DNA of 64,000 nucleotides from Flavimaricola marinus (GTDB lineage: Bacteria; Pseudomonadota; Alphaproteobacteria; Rhodobacterales; Rhodobacteraceae), in the NCBI RefSeq assembly GCF_900184895.1, contig NZ_FXZK01000001.1, positions 1,178,001 to 1,242,000 on the forward strand. The letters run 5' to 3'. Of this stretch, positions 193-7,149 are shown one piece after another. The notes under the pieces are model-generated. The model made no database searches. It saw nothing but the letters and a program-made list of their open reading frames with translations, and was not told where the DNA came from. Position numbers and translations under genes: made by a program. Each line of letters starts with the position of its first letter. The stretch's first letter is position 1.

Positions 193-271
193 GCTTGAGA
201 GTGTTTCGCCTATTTTTTGATAATTTTGCGGATTATTCTGGAATACAAGCAATCAACCCGGAGGTATGCCG

Positions 272-1684
272 TTGAACCGTTACCCGCGTGACATGACAGG
301 ATATGGCCCGACGCCCCCCGATCCGCAATGGCCGGGCGGGGCCAAGATCGCAGTCCAGATCGTCGTGAACTACGAAGAGGGCGGCGAGAACAACATCCTG
401 CATGGCGATGCCGCATCCGAGGCCTTTCTGAGCGAGATCGTGGGCGCCGCTCCGTGGCCCGGCCAGCGCCATTGGAACATGGAAAGCATCTATGAATACG
501 GCGCCCGCGCCGGTTTCTGGCGCTTGCACCGGATGCTTAGGGATATCCCTGTGACGGTGTATGGCGTCGCCACGGCTTTGGCCCGTGGCCCCGAGCAGGT
601 GGCCGCGATGAAGCAGGCCGGTTGGGAGATCGCCAGCCACGGGCTGAAGTGGATCGACTACAAGGACACGCCGCAGGAGCAGGAACGCGCCGATCTGGCC
701 GCCGCGATCAAGCTGCATACGGAGGTGACGGGCGAGCGGCCGCGTGGCCTCTATACCGGCCGCACCTCGATGAATTCGGTGCCTCTGGCCGCCGAGGAGG
801 GCGGCTTTGCCTATGTCGCCGACACCTATGACGACGATCTGCCCTATTGGCTGGAGATCGGCGACCGCGATCAGTTGATCGTGCCCTATACGCTGGACGC
901 CAACGATATGCGCTTTGCCACGCCGCAGGGATTCAACTCGGGCGATCAGTTCGAAGCCTATCTGCGCGACAGTTTCGACGTGCTCTATGCCGAGGGCGTG
1001 GCCGGTGCCCCCAAGATGATGTCGATCGGTCTGCATTGCCGTCTGGTCGGTCGCCCCGGCCGCGCGGCCGCGTTGAAGCGGGCGATCGACTATATGGCGC
1101 GCCACGAGGGCGTTTGGTTCGCCACGAGATTGCAGATTGCCGAGCATTGGGCGCGGGTGCATCCCCATACCCGCCGCGAACGTCCGTCGCAGATGGACCG
1201 CGCGGCCTTTGTCGCGGCCTTTGGTGGCATCTTTGAGCATTCGCCATGGATCGCCGAGGGGGCCTTTGATCTGGAGCTTGGTCCGACCCACGATTGCGCC
1301 GTTGGCGTGCATTCTGTCTTGGCACGCGTGTTCCGCGCGGCGACCGAGGACCAGCGCCTTGGAGTCTTGCGCGCGCACCCCGATCTGGCGGGCAAGCTGG
1401 CGGCCGCCAAGCGCCTGACGCCGGAGAGCACCGCCGAGCAGGCGGGTGCCGGGCTGGATGCGTTGACCGATGAGGAGCGTGCCGCGTTCACCGATCTGAA
1501 CACGCGCTATACCGACCGCTTCGGCTTTCCGTTCATCATCGCGGTGAAGGACAACACCAAGGCGAGCATCCTCGCCGCATTCCAGCGCCGCATCGAGAAT
1601 GACCGCGACACCGAGTTCGCCGAAGCCTGTCGTCAGGTCGAGCGCATCGCAGAGTTGCGCCTTATCGAAAAGCTGCCCCGATGA
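272..1684 (+). CDS. puuE: Bifunctional allantoinase (PuuE) / OHCU decarboxylase (UraD)
   Basis: The N-terminal ~300 residues are a polysaccharide-deacetylase-type allantoinase of the PuuE family (NYEEGGENN, MESIYEYGARAGFWR, EIASHG). The C-terminal ~165 residues are an OHCU decarboxylase domain with the HPDLAGKLA catalytic-His segment and LTDEE. One protein therefore makes (S)-allantoin from OHCU and opens it to allantoate. I prefer the TTG at 272: GGAGG at 260-264 is 7 nt upstream and the product begins MNRYPRDM, the usual PuuE N-terminus. The ATG at 266 is only 1 nt from the GGAGG. The stop overlaps allA by 4 nt (ATGA), so the two are translationally coupled. Confidence 0.9.
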   Translation: MNRYPRDMTGYGPTPPDPQWPGGAKIAVQIVVNYEEGGENNILHGDAASEAFLSEIVGAAPWPGQRHWNMESIYEYGARAGFWRLHRMLRDIPVTVYGVATALARGPEQVAAMKQAGWEIASHGLKWIDYKDTPQEQERADLAAAIKLHTEVTGERPRGLYTGRTSMNSVPLAAEEGGFAYVADTYDDDLPYWLEIGDRDQLIVPYTLDANDMRFATPQGFNSGDQFEAYLRDSFDVLYAEGVAGAPKMMSIGLHCRLVGRPGRAAALKRAIDYMARHEGVWFATRLQIAEHWARVHPHTRRERPSQMDRAAFVAAFGGIFEHSPWIAEGAFDLELGPTHDCAVGVHSVLARVFRAATEDQRLGVLRAHPDLAGKLAAAKRLTPESTAEQAGAGLDALTDEERAAFTDLNTRYTDRFGFPFIIAVKDNTKASILAAFQRRIENDRDTEFAEACRQVERIAELRLIEKLPR

Positions 1685-2166
1685 CCGCGCGGATCACCCT
1701 GCGCCCACTGACGCCCGAGGCCTTTGCCCCGTTTGGTGACGTGATCCGGGCGCAGGGCGATCCCGACAAGATCATCAATCAGGGGCTTTGCGGCCGCTAT
1801 CACGACCGCGCCCGGATGGCCTTTGACGACGGTCGCGCCGGGATCAGCCTGTTTCAGGCCGACCTCCGCACCCTGCCTCTGACCTTGGACATGATGGAGC
1901 GGCATCCCGAAGGCTCTCAGGCGTTCATCCCGATGTCGCCCGATCCTTTTGCGGTGATCGTGGCCCCGGATGCCGGTGGCGCTCCCAGCACGCCGCTGGC
2001 GTTTCTGACAGCGCCCGGCATGGCGGTGAACTATCATAAGAACACGTGGCACGGCGTGCTGACCCCGCTGAGCGGCACCGGCCTGTTTGCCGTCGTCGAC
2101 CGGATCGGCCCCGGCGCCAACCTTGAAGAGCATTGGTTCGACACGCCCTACATCGTCGAGCCCTGA
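1681..2166 (+). CDS. allA: Ureidoglycolate lyase
   Basis: A 161-aa protein of the AllA cupin-like family, which splits (S)-ureidoglycolate into glyoxylate and urea, the last step of ureide breakdown. The family pattern is clear throughout: a PLTPEAFAPFGDV start, MMERHPEGSQAFIPM in the middle and NYHKNTWHGVL near residue 120, where the conserved His residues of the fold lie. Length is typical. The start codon overlaps the puuE-uraD stop, and the NCS2 permease follows 85 nt later, probably in the same transcript. Confidence 0.93.
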   Translation: MTARITLRPLTPEAFAPFGDVIRAQGDPDKIINQGLCGRYHDRARMAFDDGRAGISLFQADLRTLPLTLDMMERHPEGSQAFIPMSPDPFAVIVAPDAGGAPSTPLAFLTAPGMAVNYHKNTWHGVLTPLSGTGLFAVVDRIGPGANLEEHWFDTPYIVEP

Positions 2167-2251
2167 GACGACGACCGGCCGCTGGCCGGGTCCAGAGACG
2201 ATCCAAACCGGCACAAGATCGGTCAATGCAACATGACAAGGGACACACAAT

Positions 2252-3667
2252 ATGGCGAATGCCTCAATCGGGACGCCCGCACAGCTGCGCGACCCCAACT
2301 ATACGCCCGGATTGGCCAAGGCCGTTCCGCTGGGTCTGCAACATGTCCTGGCGATGTTCGTCTCGAACGTGACGCCGGCGATCATCATTTCCGGTGCTGC
2401 CGGCTTTGGCTTTGGCTCTGACGCCGGGGCGCAGGGCTTTCCGGATATGAGCTATCTGATCCAGATGTCGATGCTGTTTGCGGGCATTGCCACTCTGTTT
2501 CAGACCATCGGCATGGGCCCAGTGGGCGCCCGGTTGCCCATCGTGCAGGGCACCAGTTTTGCGTTTATCCCGATCATGATCCCGCTGGTGGCGGGCAAGG
2601 GCGTCGAGGCCCTGCCCGCCCTGTTCGGCGGCGTGCTGATCGGCGGTCTGTTTCATGCGCTGCTTGGCACGGTGATCGGCAAGATCCGCTTTGCCCTGCC
2701 GCCGCTCGTCACGGGCCTTGTCGTGACGATGATCGGCTTGGCGCTCGTCCGGGTCGGCATTCAATATGCCGCCGGTGGCGTTCCCGCGATTGGCACCCCC
2801 GAGTATGGCAGCCTGCTGAATTGGTCCGCCGCGCTTGTCGTGGTGCTGGTGACTTTGGGGCTCAAGTTCTTTACCCGGGGGATGCTTGCCGTGTCCGCTG
2901 TCTTTGTCGGGATCATCGCCGGATACGTCTATGCGCTGATGGTCGGCATGGTCACGCTGGAGGGCATCGGAACAAGCTGGAGCCGGGCGGCCGCCTTTGC
3001 CCCGCCGATGCCGTTCAAGTACGGCTTTGAGTTCAGCTTTGCCGCCGTCATCGGGTTTTGCCTGATGGCATTCGTCTCGGCCATCGAGACGGTCGGCGAC
3101 GTGTCGGGCATCACCAAGGGCGGTGCCGGTCGCGAGGCCACCGATGTCGAGATTCAGGGCGCCACCTATGCCGATGGTTTCGGCACGGCCGTGGCTGGCG
3201 TGTTTGGCGGCATGCCCAACACCTCGTTCAGCCAGAACGTCGGGCTGATCGCCATGACCGGCGTGATGAGCCGCCATGTGGTGACCATTGGCGCCATCTT
3301 CCTGATCATCTGCGGCCTGATCCCCAAGGTCGGGGCCGTGATCCGCACCATTCCCATCGAAGTGCTGGGCGGCGGGGTCATCGTGATGTTTGGCATGGTC
3401 GTCGCGGCGGGTGTCTCGATGCTGTCGGACGTGAACTGGAATCGGCGCAACATGGTAATCTTTGCCATCGCTCTGTCCGTCGGCCTTGGCCTTCAGCTGG
3501 AGCCGCAGGCGGTGCAGTATCTGCCGGACACGCTCCGCATTCTGATGACCTCGGGCCTGTTGCCTGCCGCTGTCATCGCCATCGTGCTGAACCTTGCGCT
3601 GCCCGAGGAGCTGGAAGAGGACCAGACCGAAGAGATCGCCGGCGGGATGGCCAAAGCGCCGAAGTAG
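2252..3667 (+). CDS. NCS2-family purine/urate permease
   Basis: A 471-aa inner-membrane protein of the nucleobase:cation symporter-2 family with about 12-14 hydrophobic segments. Family hallmarks are the N-terminal LQHVLAMF segment, PIVQGTSFAF in the first core domain and SFSQNVGLIAMTGV near residues 325-340, matching the NCS2 QN-x-G signature. It imports a purine-type substrate with a cation. Its place behind puuE-uraD and allA points to urate, xanthine or allantoin as substrate; the sequence alone does not decide which. An AAGGGA ribosome-binding site precedes the ATG. A strong terminator follows the stop. Confidence 0.88.
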   Translation: MANASIGTPAQLRDPNYTPGLAKAVPLGLQHVLAMFVSNVTPAIIISGAAGFGFGSDAGAQGFPDMSYLIQMSMLFAGIATLFQTIGMGPVGARLPIVQGTSFAFIPIMIPLVAGKGVEALPALFGGVLIGGLFHALLGTVIGKIRFALPPLVTGLVVTMIGLALVRVGIQYAAGGVPAIGTPEYGSLLNWSAALVVVLVTLGLKFFTRGMLAVSAVFVGIIAGYVYALMVGMVTLEGIGTSWSRAAAFAPPMPFKYGFEFSFAAVIGFCLMAFVSAIETVGDVSGITKGGAGREATDVEIQGATYADGFGTAVAGVFGGMPNTSFSQNVGLIAMTGVMSRHVVTIGAIFLIICGLIPKVGAVIRTIPIEVLGGGVIVMFGMVVAAGVSMLSDVNWNRRNMVIFAIALSVGLGLQLEPQAVQYLPDTLRILMTSGLLPAAVIAIVLNLALPEELEEDQTEEIAGGMAKAPK

Positions 3668-3681
3668 CCACTTTGCGAAGC

Positions 3682-3720
3682 AAAACCCCCGGTCGCGGTG
3701 ATGCGGCCGGGGGTTTTTTT
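3682..3720. terminator. Intrinsic terminator after the permease gene
   Basis: A hairpin CCCCCGGTCGC / GCGGCCGGGGG (one G-U pair, 6-nt loop) is followed by seven T residues on the plus strand and preceded by AAAA. It can therefore serve both the plus-strand permease operon and the convergent allE. Confidence 0.9.
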
Positions 3721-3748
3721 GTGTTTCGGGCGGCGTCGGGTGCCGCGG

Positions 3749-4558
3749 TCAGACGATCGGGCCGAGCGGCATGTGCCGGTTGATATCCTTGTAGAGCAGA
3801 TAGCGGAACGGCCCCGGCCCGCCGGTGTAGCAGGCCTGCGGGCAGAAGGCGCGGAGCCACATGAAATCGCCCGCCTCGACCTCGACCCAATCCCGGTTCA
3901 GCCGATAGACCGCCTTGCCTTCCAGCACGAAGAGGCCGTGCTCCATCACGTGCGTTTCCTCAAAGGGGATCACGCCGCCGGGTTGCAGGGTGACGATGGT
4001 CACCGCCATGTCATGCGCCAGATCGGCGGGGTCGGTGAACAGGGTCGTGGCCCACGCCCCGTCCGTGTCGGGCATGACCTTGGGCGCGGTCGCTTGGTCC
4101 GTGGTCACCAAGGGCGCAGGCGGGGCGATGCCGGGGGCGGGGACGTAGGCTTTGCGGATCCAGTGGAACAGCGCCTTTTCGGTGGCCTTGAGGGTCCAGG
4201 CGCAGCCGGGGGGCAGATAGGCGTAGCCCCCTGCGGTGAGGTCGTGCGCCGTGCCCTCGATGGTGAGGGTGATCGCGCCGTGGGTAACGAAGAGCACGCC
4301 TTGGGCCTGCGGGTCCGGCTCGGGCGCGTCAGAGCCGCCGCCGGGCTGCACCTCCATCAGGTATTGGCTGAAGGTTTCCGCAAAGCCGGTCATCGGGCGG
4401 GCGAGCACCCAGAGCCGGGTCTCGGCCCATCCGGGGAGCCTGCTGGCGGTGATGTCGGACATCGTGGCACGGGGGAGGACGGCGTAGGCCTCGGTAAAGG
4501 TCGCGCGCTGGGTGTGGAGTGCTGTCTGAGGCGGCAGACCGCCGGGCGTGGATGACAT
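3749..4558 (-). CDS. allE: (S)-ureidoglycine aminohydrolase (bicupin)
   Basis: A 269-aa double-cupin protein. It releases ammonia from (S)-ureidoglycine to give (S)-ureidoglycolate, the AllA substrate. The C-terminal cupin carries the metal-site pattern ETHVMEHGLFVLEG, then GDFMWLRAFCPQACY; the N-terminal cupin has LMEVQPGGG and GGYAYLPPGCAW. The start at 4558 (MSSTPGG) has an AAGGGGA ribosome-binding site. The frame stays open upstream, but that stretch is a G-free leader rather than protein. It sits convergent to allA and the permease, so the window encodes every step from hydroxyisourate to glyoxylate except allantoate amidohydrolase. Confidence 0.92.
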   Translation of the reverse strand: MSSTPGGLPPQTALHTQRATFTEAYAVLPRATMSDITASRLPGWAETRLWVLARPMTGFAETFSQYLMEVQPGGGSDAPEPDPQAQGVLFVTHGAITLTIEGTAHDLTAGGYAYLPPGCAWTLKATEKALFHWIRKAYVPAPGIAPPAPLVTTDQATAPKVMPDTDGAWATTLFTDPADLAHDMAVTIVTLQPGGVIPFEETHVMEHGLFVLEGKAVYRLNRDWVEVEAGDFMWLRAFCPQACYTGGPGPFRYLLYKDINRHMPLGPIV

Positions 4559-4567
4559 GAGGTCCCC

Positions 4568-4642
4568 TTGGGTTGGATTTGGGGGGAGTATGGGGGGGAT
4601 TTGAAGGGGGTGGTAGAGGGATTGAAGGAGATGGGGTTGTTT
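4568..4642 (-). promoter_or_regulatory. 75-nt G-free, C-rich leader upstream of allE
   Basis: Read on the minus strand (allE sense), positions 4642 to 4568 contain 40 C, 22 A, 13 T and no G. The tract ends 9 nt before the allE start. C-rich, G-poor unstructured RNA is the classical type of Rho-loading (rut) sequence, so Rho-controlled attenuation of allE is a reasonable inference. A protein-binding leader is an alternative. No intrinsic terminator is seen in it. Confidence 0.5.
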
Positions 4643-4725
4643 CAGGCGCTGCAGGCGGCAACCGCATTTAGGACGCGGCAACCGTTAACAGAGAATAAAT
4701 ACTTGTATGGGCATTTGAAGATCGA

Positions 4726-5121
4726 TTAGCGATTGGTTTTTATTACGCTGTCCGAAATTTCTACAAATAGTTTTCTCGCCACCTTCTTGCTCGAAATTTC
4801 CCACTCATGTTCTATCAAACTCATAGCTTGCGCAATTCGACTCCTTGAGTTCACCTTATTCTTCAGTGATATTCTGATTAGACTCAGATGCCTGAATCTC
4901 GCGTTACCAATTCCGAGGCGTTTAGCCCTAGCTTTCATGTCGCCGTCGCACGCTACAAGGACGGCATCATTTTCTTGTGCAGTCAATGCCACAATATCAT
5001 CAGATGATCCTGGCTTCGCTCCTTCGACAAAGTATATGACTTCGTGACCGGCCCTTTCAAACTCGCCGCCTACGCTTACTGGCACCCCTTCATCCAAAAA
5101 GACTTTGAGCGATGGCTTCAC
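4726..5121 (-). CDS. DUF5615-like PIN-domain protein, putative toxin
   Basis: A 131-aa protein beginning MKPSLKVFLDEGVP with ERAGHEV and a later VLVACDGDMKARA. This is the layout of the DUF5615 PIN-like family: an acidic residue in the first strand and a D-x-D motif around residues 56-60. Such proteins are usually the RNase-like partner of a DUF433 antitoxin, and a DUF433 protein is encoded immediately upstream with a 6-nt gap. The start is a GTG without an evident ribosome-binding site, so translation probably depends on the upstream gene. The region is clearly AT-richer than its neighbours, about 40-45% GC by eye, suggesting transfer. The basic C-terminal ~45 residues are not recognised. 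Confidence 0.65.
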   Translation of the reverse strand: MKPSLKVFLDEGVPVSVGGEFERAGHEVIYFVEGAKPGSSDDIVALTAQENDAVLVACDGDMKARAKRLGIGNARFRHLSLIRISLKNKVNSRSRIAQAMSLIEHEWEISSKKVARKLFVEISDSVIKTNR

Positions 5122-5127
5122 GGCTTT

Positions 5128-5763
5128 TTATGCTACTTTCTGTTGCCTTACGGCATCAACATCTTCAATCTTAAGGGTCGGAAACTCTTTAACAATATCG
5201 CCGTTCGAGTAGCCTGCTTCGATAAAATCCAGAATTGATCTAACGGGAACACGGGTGCCACTGATGACTTCAGCATTATGTGCCACGCGGCGATGTTTTT
5301 CAAAATTCCCGACGTCTTCAGGTGATCTCTTCCAAAGATCGGATACCGCAGTCTTCATGTCGGATTGAACGACATGAAGTGGTATTCTGAAGACTTTCTG
5401 ATTGGATACCGGCTCAAAATAGTCGCCGCTTTCGTCGTCGTAAAAGACCACTTTCTTATTAAGGACCGCCATAACTTTGTTGTGCCAGTCAATGTCTCCT
5501 AGAGCCGCTAGCTCGACCTTGACCTCGCGAAGATGCTGAAGCGAGCACTTTAGATCCATCCTAAGTGTCTTGAGGACCTTCAGAGATAGAAGATCGTTAA
5601 ACGAGTAAACTCGGCTATATGGAGAACGACGATTCTCTGCCGCAAACGAAGGTTCAAAAAACCCCGAAACATCCCAATTTCGCAGTTGCTGTACCGATAG
5701 ACCCGTCAGTCGGGCAGCTTGCTCGTCCGTAAACGCCCAGATTATCGCATTTTGTTGGTTCAT
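5128..5763 (-). CDS. MerR-like HTH plus DUF433 protein, putative antitoxin
   Basis: A 211-aa protein with two recognisable parts. The N-terminus resembles a MerR-type helix-turn-helix (TDEQAARLTGLSVQQLRNWD, then YSRVYSFNDLLSLK). The C-terminus is a DUF433 domain (AEVISGTRVPVRSILDFIE, then AGYSNGDIVKEFPTL). DUF433 proteins are the usual antitoxin partners of DUF5615 PIN-like toxins, encoded next. The N-terminal HTH would let it bind and regulate its own promoter. I chose ATG 5763, which has AGAGGAAG upstream; a TTG at 5784 is also in frame. Low GC relative to both flanks. Confidence 0.68.
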   Translation of the reverse strand: MNQQNAIIWAFTDEQAARLTGLSVQQLRNWDVSGFFEPSFAAENRRSPYSRVYSFNDLLSLKVLKTLRMDLKCSLQHLREVKVELAALGDIDWHNKVMAVLNKKVVFYDDESGDYFEPVSNQKVFRIPLHVVQSDMKTAVSDLWKRSPEDVGNFEKHRRVAHNAEVISGTRVPVRSILDFIEAGYSNGDIVKEFPTLKIEDVDAVRQQKVA

Positions 5764-5856
5764 TTTCGGTCTTCCTCTAACCAAGACATAATGCCGGAAC
5801 TCTCATCGGCCAATGTGGCAAAAATGACTCGAAAGACTTTACGGACCATTGCTCCC

Positions 5857-7149
5857 CTAAACCACCACCTCCCGCGCCACCTGATCGCCCACCCCAAACA
5901 CCCGCTTGTACCGCTCGATCTCGTCGGCAGGCCCCATTGCCTTGTTCGGGTTGTCCGACAGCTTGACCGTGGGTCGTCCGTTGGCCGAGATCGCTTTGCA
6001 GACCAGTGAGAACGGCGCCAGCGCGTCGTCCTTCACCAGTCCTTTGAAATCGTTGGTCAGCATCGTGCCCCAGCCGAAGGACACCCGCACCCGTCCGGCG
6101 AATTGCGCTTGCAGGCTCACGATCTTGTCCACGTCCAGCCCGTCGGAGAAGATCACCAGCTTGTCCCGAGGGTCTTCGCCGCGGGATTTCCACCAGCGGA
6201 TCGCCGTCTCTGCCCCCTCGGCCGGGTCGCCCGAGTCGATCCGGATCCCCGTCCAGCCGGCCAGCCAGTCGGGGGCGTGCTTGAGGAATCCCGCGGTGCC
6301 GTAGGTGTCGGGCAGGATGATCCGCAGGTTCCCCTCGTGTTCGGCGTGCCAGTCGGACAGCACGTCATAGGGCGCCTGCTGCAGGTCCGCGTCGTTGTCG
6401 GCCAGTGCGGAGTAGACCATCGGCAGTTCGTGGGCGTTGGTCCCGATGGCCTCGATATCCCGGTGCATGGCGATCCGGCAGTTGGAGGTGCCGATGAACT
6501 TGTCACCCAGCCCTTCGAGCATCGCCTGCACGCACCAGTCCTGCCAGAGGTAGCTGTGCCGCCGCCGCGTTCCGAAATCGGCCAGCCGCAGGTCCGGCAC
6601 GTCGCGCAGTTGCTCGACCTTTTCCCAGAGCTTGGTCATCGCCCTGGCATAAAGCACCTGAAGCTCGAACCGCCCCATGTCGCCCAGCACCGCCCGCCCC
6701 CGAAGCTCCATCAGCGTCGCCAGCGCCGGGATTTCCCAGAGCATGACCTCGGGCCATGAGCCTTCGAAGGTCAGCTCGTACTGCCCGTCCCGCTTTTCGA
6801 GGTGGTAGGGCGGCAGTTTCATGTTCTCGAACCAGTCCATGAACTCGGGGCTGAACATCTGCCGTTTGCCGTAGAAGGTGTTGCCTCGCATCCACGTGGA
6901 TTCCCCCCGGCTGAGCGACAGCGACCGGATGTGGTCGAGCTGTTCGCGCAACTCGCCCTCGTCGACCAGATCGGCCAGCCGGATGTGTTTCGACCGGTTG
7001 ATCAGCGAGAAGGTGACCTGCGTGTCCGGCTTGTTCCGGAACACCGACTGGCACATCAGCAGCTTGTAGAAATCCGTGTCGATGAGCGACCGCACGATGG
7101 GGTCGATCTTCCACTTGTGGTTCCAGACGCGTGTGGCGATATCGACCAT
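5857..7149 (-). CDS. pncB: Nicotinate phosphoribosyltransferase
   Basis: A 430-aa cytosolic enzyme that joins nicotinate to PRPP, giving nicotinate mononucleotide for NAD salvage. Family segments are unmistakable: SLIDTDFYKLLMCQ at the N-terminus, FGTRRRHSY, FIGTSNCRIAMHR and IRIDSGDP, with VIFSDGLDVDKI and VSFGWGTMLTND near the end. Length is normal. It is transcribed away from the reductase/HxlR pair. pncA, supplying its substrate from nicotinamide, is encoded separately at 10.2 kb. Confidence 0.96.
   Translation of the reverse strand: MVDIATRVWNHKWKIDPIVRSLIDTDFYKLLMCQSVFRNKPDTQVTFSLINRSKHIRLADLVDEGELREQLDHIRSLSLSRGESTWMRGNTFYGKRQMFSPEFMDWFENMKLPPYHLEKRDGQYELTFEGSWPEVMLWEIPALATLMELRGRAVLGDMGRFELQVLYARAMTKLWEKVEQLRDVPDLRLADFGTRRRHSYLWQDWCVQAMLEGLGDKFIGTSNCRIAMHRDIEAIGTNAHELPMVYSALADNDADLQQAPYDVLSDWHAEHEGNLRIILPDTYGTAGFLKHAPDWLAGWTGIRIDSGDPAEGAETAIRWWKSRGEDPRDKLVIFSDGLDVDKIVSLQAQFAGRVRVSFGWGTMLTNDFKGLVKDDALAPFSLVCKAISANGRPTVKLSDNPNKAMGPADEIERYKRVFGVGDQVAREVVV

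Follow-up and report, generated by a model that had tools for sequence, protein, structure and literature searches.

The closest described counterparts of the tract studied here are the rut sites of Escherichia coli (criteria of PMC6407284). The tract lies in a window of 64,000 nt from Flavimaricola marinus, the window being the whole stretch of DNA analysed. It resembles rut sites in its length (at least 70–80 nt), in the excess of C over G, and in its spaced cytosines and YC dimers; like them it is unstructured by prediction, apparently untranslated, and followed downstream by a putative pause motif and a hairpin. It differs in that G is wholly absent and in being a predicted rut only. In E. 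coli, the quality of a rut site was reported not to predict how efficiently strong terminators work in vivo (PMC9160355). The DUF1127 attenuator of Sinorhizobium (PMC12218461) is likewise a C-rich attenuation element upstream of an alphaproteobacterial gene. There, access is governed by a translated upstream ORF together with a masking structure, and reporter data were presented, whereas neither a conserved ORF nor a masking structure was found here. Paracoccus denitrificans, likewise of the Rhodobacterales, offers a further comparison (PMC5123632): there too an intergenic G-quadruplex motif precedes a nitrogen-metabolism gene, nasT. The motif found here, on the other hand, is predicted only, and is located on the template strand about 20–60 nt before the ATG.

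The gene order around the tract was determined. The gene downstream had been named as allE in a preliminary description, and the profile matches given below bore this out. The relevant features are as follows.

3749–4558, minus strand: allE, (S)-ureidoglycine aminohydrolase, 269 aa (NF008373, equivalog, 477.6 bits against a cut-off of 445; TIGR03214)
4520–4543, minus strand: candidate termination zone within the opening codons of allE, a GC-rich hairpin overlapped by a pause consensus (GGCGGTCTGCCG)
4563–4569, minus strand: Shine-Dalgarno-like AAGGGGA of allE (from the sequence; anti-SD duplex −6.9 kcal/mol)
4568–4642, minus strand: G-free, C-rich, rut-like tract, 75 nt (40 C, 22 A, 13 T, 0 G)
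4581–4620, plus strand (template strand of allE): canonical G-quadruplex motif GGGGGG-AGTAT-GGGGGGG-ATTTGAA-GGGGG-TGGTAGA-GGG (pattern scan)
4649–4691, minus strand: hairpin preceding the tract, with a folding energy of −20.3 kcal/mol and no U run after it
4726–5121, minus strand: DUF5615 protein gene, the last before the tract (PF18480, 3.8e-7)
5128–5784, minus strand: gene for a MerR/DUF433 protein, paired with the DUF5615 gene (PF04255 and PF13411; composition)
5857–7149, minus strand: pncB, nicotinate phosphoribosyltransferase (NF003704), upstream of allE and co-directional with it

The purine genes for a puuE-uraD fusion, allA and a purine permease occupy 266–3667 on the plus strand, convergent with allE, and a strong intrinsic-terminator hairpin was observed at 3682–3717 between the permease gene and allE. 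On its upstream side, allE is separated by the tract from the co-directional, low-GC DUF433/DUF5615 pair, a point overlooked in the preliminary description. The pair lies in DNA of 40–50% GC within surroundings of about 65%, and therefore looks acquired. It is sparse in the family (9 of 397 genomes), and we take it to be toxin-antitoxin-like. At the other end of this low-GC island, on the opposite strand, the second most extreme C-over-G window was found (5845–5922, plus strand, 40 C and 9 G), overlapping the 3′ end of pncB. Between the DUF5615 stop (near 4726) and the allE ATG (4558), a same-strand gap of 167 nt contains, in transcript order, the hairpin (4691–4649), the G-free tract and the Shine-Dalgarno-like AAGGGGA. 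The hairpin is built from two exact copies of CGGTTGCCGC 20 bp apart (4655–4684, minus strand), and this exact pair is unique in the genome. No intrinsic terminator (GC-rich hairpin plus U run) was detected by scanning between 4726 and 4558. The tract may be called a leader of allE, as it had been, and it may equally be called the gap between the DUF5615 gene and the allE ATG.

On the minus strand of 4568–4642 the tract reads AAACAACCCCATCTCCTTCAATCCCTCTACCACCCCCTTCAAATCCCCCCCATACTCCCCCCAAATCCAACCCAA, with an extent of exactly 75 nt, and a recount gave the same base composition as the preliminary description. Apart from the tract, the longest plus-strand runs in the window were 21 nt without C and 23 nt without G. 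When both strands of the 4.79-Mb genome were searched, the tract was the sole G-free run of at least 60 nt, and only two others reached 42 nt (51 nt and 42 nt), both AT-rich. Simple independence arithmetic with 32% G predicts fewer than 1e-6 such runs per genome, in agreement with the earlier judgement that a chance origin was implausible. The tract is numerically extreme and truly exceptional. G-free runs of at least 75 nt were present in 38 of 298 family genomes. However, the 30 loci of these genomes that were inspected were mainly poly-C contig ends, simple repeats and AT-rich genomes, indicating that a C-rich, non-repetitive G-free run is rare in the family. The other C-rich G-free runs of the family had unrelated surroundings with no gene context in common, and a general class of G-free leaders was therefore rejected.

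We considered whether the tract is simply a G-run-rich, low-complexity stretch left where native DNA meets the low-GC island, non-functional and without a selected role. It is located at that junction, was found in this genome alone, had no copy elsewhere in the genome in a DNA search, and finds no shared gene context among the other G-free runs of the family. On the other hand, no tandem-repeat structure was detected in it, zero G over 75 nt is unexpected unless the process was biased, and the run stops exactly at the ribosome binding site, the AAGGGGA at 4569–4563. Such a sequence oddity appears unlikely overall, though it is the main rival to the reading favoured below. The core 22-mer of the tract was absent from the viral contigs searched.

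The properties expected of a rut site were then quantified. With 42 C but a single G, a 78-nt window over the tract has the strongest C-over-G bias in the 64 kb, and the C>G excess runs on into allE. The 75-nt tract has 34 YC dimers, compared with 11.8 on average; its cytosine spacing is regular, with a C every 11–13 nt, and six YC dimers at 10–14 nt fit within it. The tract RNA was predicted to be 91% unpaired, compared with 37% for random segments (sd 6, maximum 57%). RhoTermPredict was re-implemented with the criteria of PMC6407284, and the tract scored 15/15, while elsewhere in the scan the score was at most 14.5; this scoring called 422 sites in the 64 kb, indicating that the score is not specific. 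Hairpin-plus-pause motifs like that at 4520–4543 are also frequent. Rho itself is encoded in the genome (TIGR00767, 689 bits). The composition had earlier been taken for that of a strong Rho-utilisation site, and the C>>G bias, length, cytosine spacing and unstructured RNA all fit with this, as a predicted rut. A riboswitch had been dismissed, and this also held, as no Rfam family or riboswitch matched in 4400–4900 up to E = 1. The tract is real and extreme, and is best read, from its sequence, as a near-ideal putative rut site between two genes.

A rut site at this position could act on allE itself, and the preliminary description had proposed that Rho attenuates allE from within its mRNA leader and that translation or an effector lifts this attenuation. 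The rut evidence applies equally to such an attenuator, and the Sinorhizobium element, a Rho-type attenuator with C-rich codons in an alphaproteobacterium (PMC12218461), offers a precedent. To compare the upstream regions, 110 allE loci were placed, the locus studied here included. A comparable tract was found at none of the 109 others, where G-free runs in the 250 nt upstream reached 32 nt at most, so that the comparison of leader composition in relatives proposed earlier gave no sign of conservation. In 57 of the 110 loci, puuE is the immediate same-strand neighbour upstream of allE, and the gene ends often overlap, leaving no leader; one congener has this operon arrangement (puuE-allE), with 61% protein identity. 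Because the tract is absent from the 109 loci and many relatives have no allE leader, the comparison with relatives does not support a conserved attenuator of allE. Moreover, neither an aptamer nor an Rfam match was found, and no promoter above threshold was detected just upstream. Pairing of the Shine-Dalgarno sequence to the tract was not stronger than with shuffled tracts. Its occlusion was similar when the tract was shuffled or replaced, and specific Shine-Dalgarno sequestration by the tract was rejected. Nothing at this locus points to an effector. The earlier interpretation was thus upheld in its rut-like properties and in the presence of a Rho gene, while effector-relieved attenuation of allE was left unsupported, and we consider the attenuator improbable.

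An element of about 27 bp, with a consensus of about ATTTTCAAATTTTCCCGAAAAGACCTG, was observed upstream of stand-alone allE in many Rhodobacterales, 70–98 bp before the gene, and also near puuE in operon-type loci (allE/puuE loci L049–L126). In the genome studied here it occurs upstream of puuE (198–224, minus strand, 12.2 bits), while allE has only a weak match (4696–4722, minus strand, 2.9 bits, rank 24 of 127,948), and the element has apparently been lost there. As a weak relic of the family element, this match would put a transcription start upstream of the tract, in favour of the attenuator. The element is a candidate operator, judged from its sequence, of a purine-catabolism regulator; it was gathered by eye and scored afterwards, and is therefore a lead, not a result.

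The genes upstream of the tract were also compared. Among 12 other homologous DUF433 loci, one (L166) has a C-rich, G-poor tract directly behind the pair (C−G = 33 in 78 nt; about 2543–2640 in gene-pair orientation), followed by a convergent gene that resembles the RidA family, against a background of 2 such places in 1.66 Mb of strand in relatives. The tract at L166 gives weak independent support to an intergenic Rho terminator. At the other 11 of the 12 loci, such a tract was missing from behind the pair, and with 1 of 12 the tract as a fixed component of DUF433/DUF5615 islands was rejected.

DNA structure on the plus strand was also considered. The motif at 4581–4620 has four runs of at least 3 G with loops of 1–7, and a DNA G-quadruplex formed there might hinder RNA polymerase on the allE template strand. 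This four-tract motif had the top G4Hunter score in the window, and the nasT G-quadruplex (PMC5123632) provides a precedent. However, nine such motifs occur in the 64 kb, and they are common in GC-rich DNA, which makes this one less special; a G-quadruplex also leaves unexplained why C is absent from the spacers between the G runs. We regard such a role as quite improbable.

The tract has the DUF5615 stop on one side and the allE ATG on the other, but an ORF starting from ATG 4667 overlaps it. This ORF (4329–4667, minus strand) encodes 112 aa rich in proline, starts upstream of the tract and overlaps allE out of frame; it is probably due to chance. The tract might then be translated, either in this upstream ORF or in an AllE with an N-terminal extension that starts at TTG 4681. 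Both frames are open across the tract, and proline stretches could stall ribosomes. Open frames are to be expected, since G-free sequence cannot contain TAG or TGA. No ribosome binding site is visible before 4667, and the AllE proteins of relatives start near ATG 4558 with no equivalent of the extension, which was therefore rejected. Translation of the tract appears extremely unlikely.

The two other long G-free runs of the genome, 51 nt and 42 nt, both adjoin origin-like sequence, and two G-free runs in other genomes contain TTATCCACA, raising the idea that the tract is a replication-origin-like unwinding element. However, no DnaA-box-like site was found in 3500–6000, the tract is C-rich and not AT-rich, and the likely origin is 168 kb distant. 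An unwinding element is hardly credible here, and a replication role was rejected for want of DnaA boxes. With regard to the other runs, the 42-nt AT-rich run (L175, G000:C16:1347800–1351800) has DnaA-box-like sites around it and lies upstream of hemJ and rho, in a region that is probably the chromosomal origin. The other long AT-rich run belongs to a small contig and has repeats and a TTATCCACA box next to it. Long G-free, A/C-rich runs with TTATCCACA (DnaA box) were observed in other family genomes at L150 (702–796) and L154 (88–171), their sequences suggesting replication origins.

The composition and length of the tract, its cytosine spacing and predicted lack of structure, the gene order and the presence of Rho are established; that the tract is transcribed, that Rho binds it and ends transcription, and that the cell gains any benefit is inferred. 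As the tract sits in the gap that follows two co-directional, operon-like genes, it is most simply modelled as a Rho-dependent intergenic terminator, or insulator, between the DUF5615 gene and allE. We favour this model tentatively, being close to evenly divided about it. RNA polymerase would come from the low-GC DUF433/DUF5615 genes, and possibly from pncB as well. Ribosomes would drop off at the DUF5615 stop, exposing naked, unstructured C-rich RNA, and Rho would load onto this bare RNA in the apparently untranslated 167-nt gap. Transcription would then end in or just before the first allE codons, at the GC-rich hairpin and pause motif. The tract would thus serve as an operon-end terminator and insulator, from which transcripts with fast ribosome loading at the allE start could escape. 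On the other hand, the extremity of the tract exceeds what Rho needs, and this counts against the Rho-terminator reading. A combined scheme was also considered, in which the template-strand G-quadruplex holds RNA polymerase ahead of Rho loaded on the C-rich RNA, forming a compact two-way and unusually strong terminator, possibly gated by the proline-rich upstream ORF; we think this very unlikely.

No new mechanism is opened by the tract. If the intergenic Rho terminator is true, the tract would be a near-ideal natural rut site within a Rho terminator of an already known type. It would also provide a clean test case of the extent to which C-richness and absence of G alone decide Rho termination in alphaproteobacteria. 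For the organism, it would mean that a host gene beside acquired DNA is kept apart from the transcription of that DNA.
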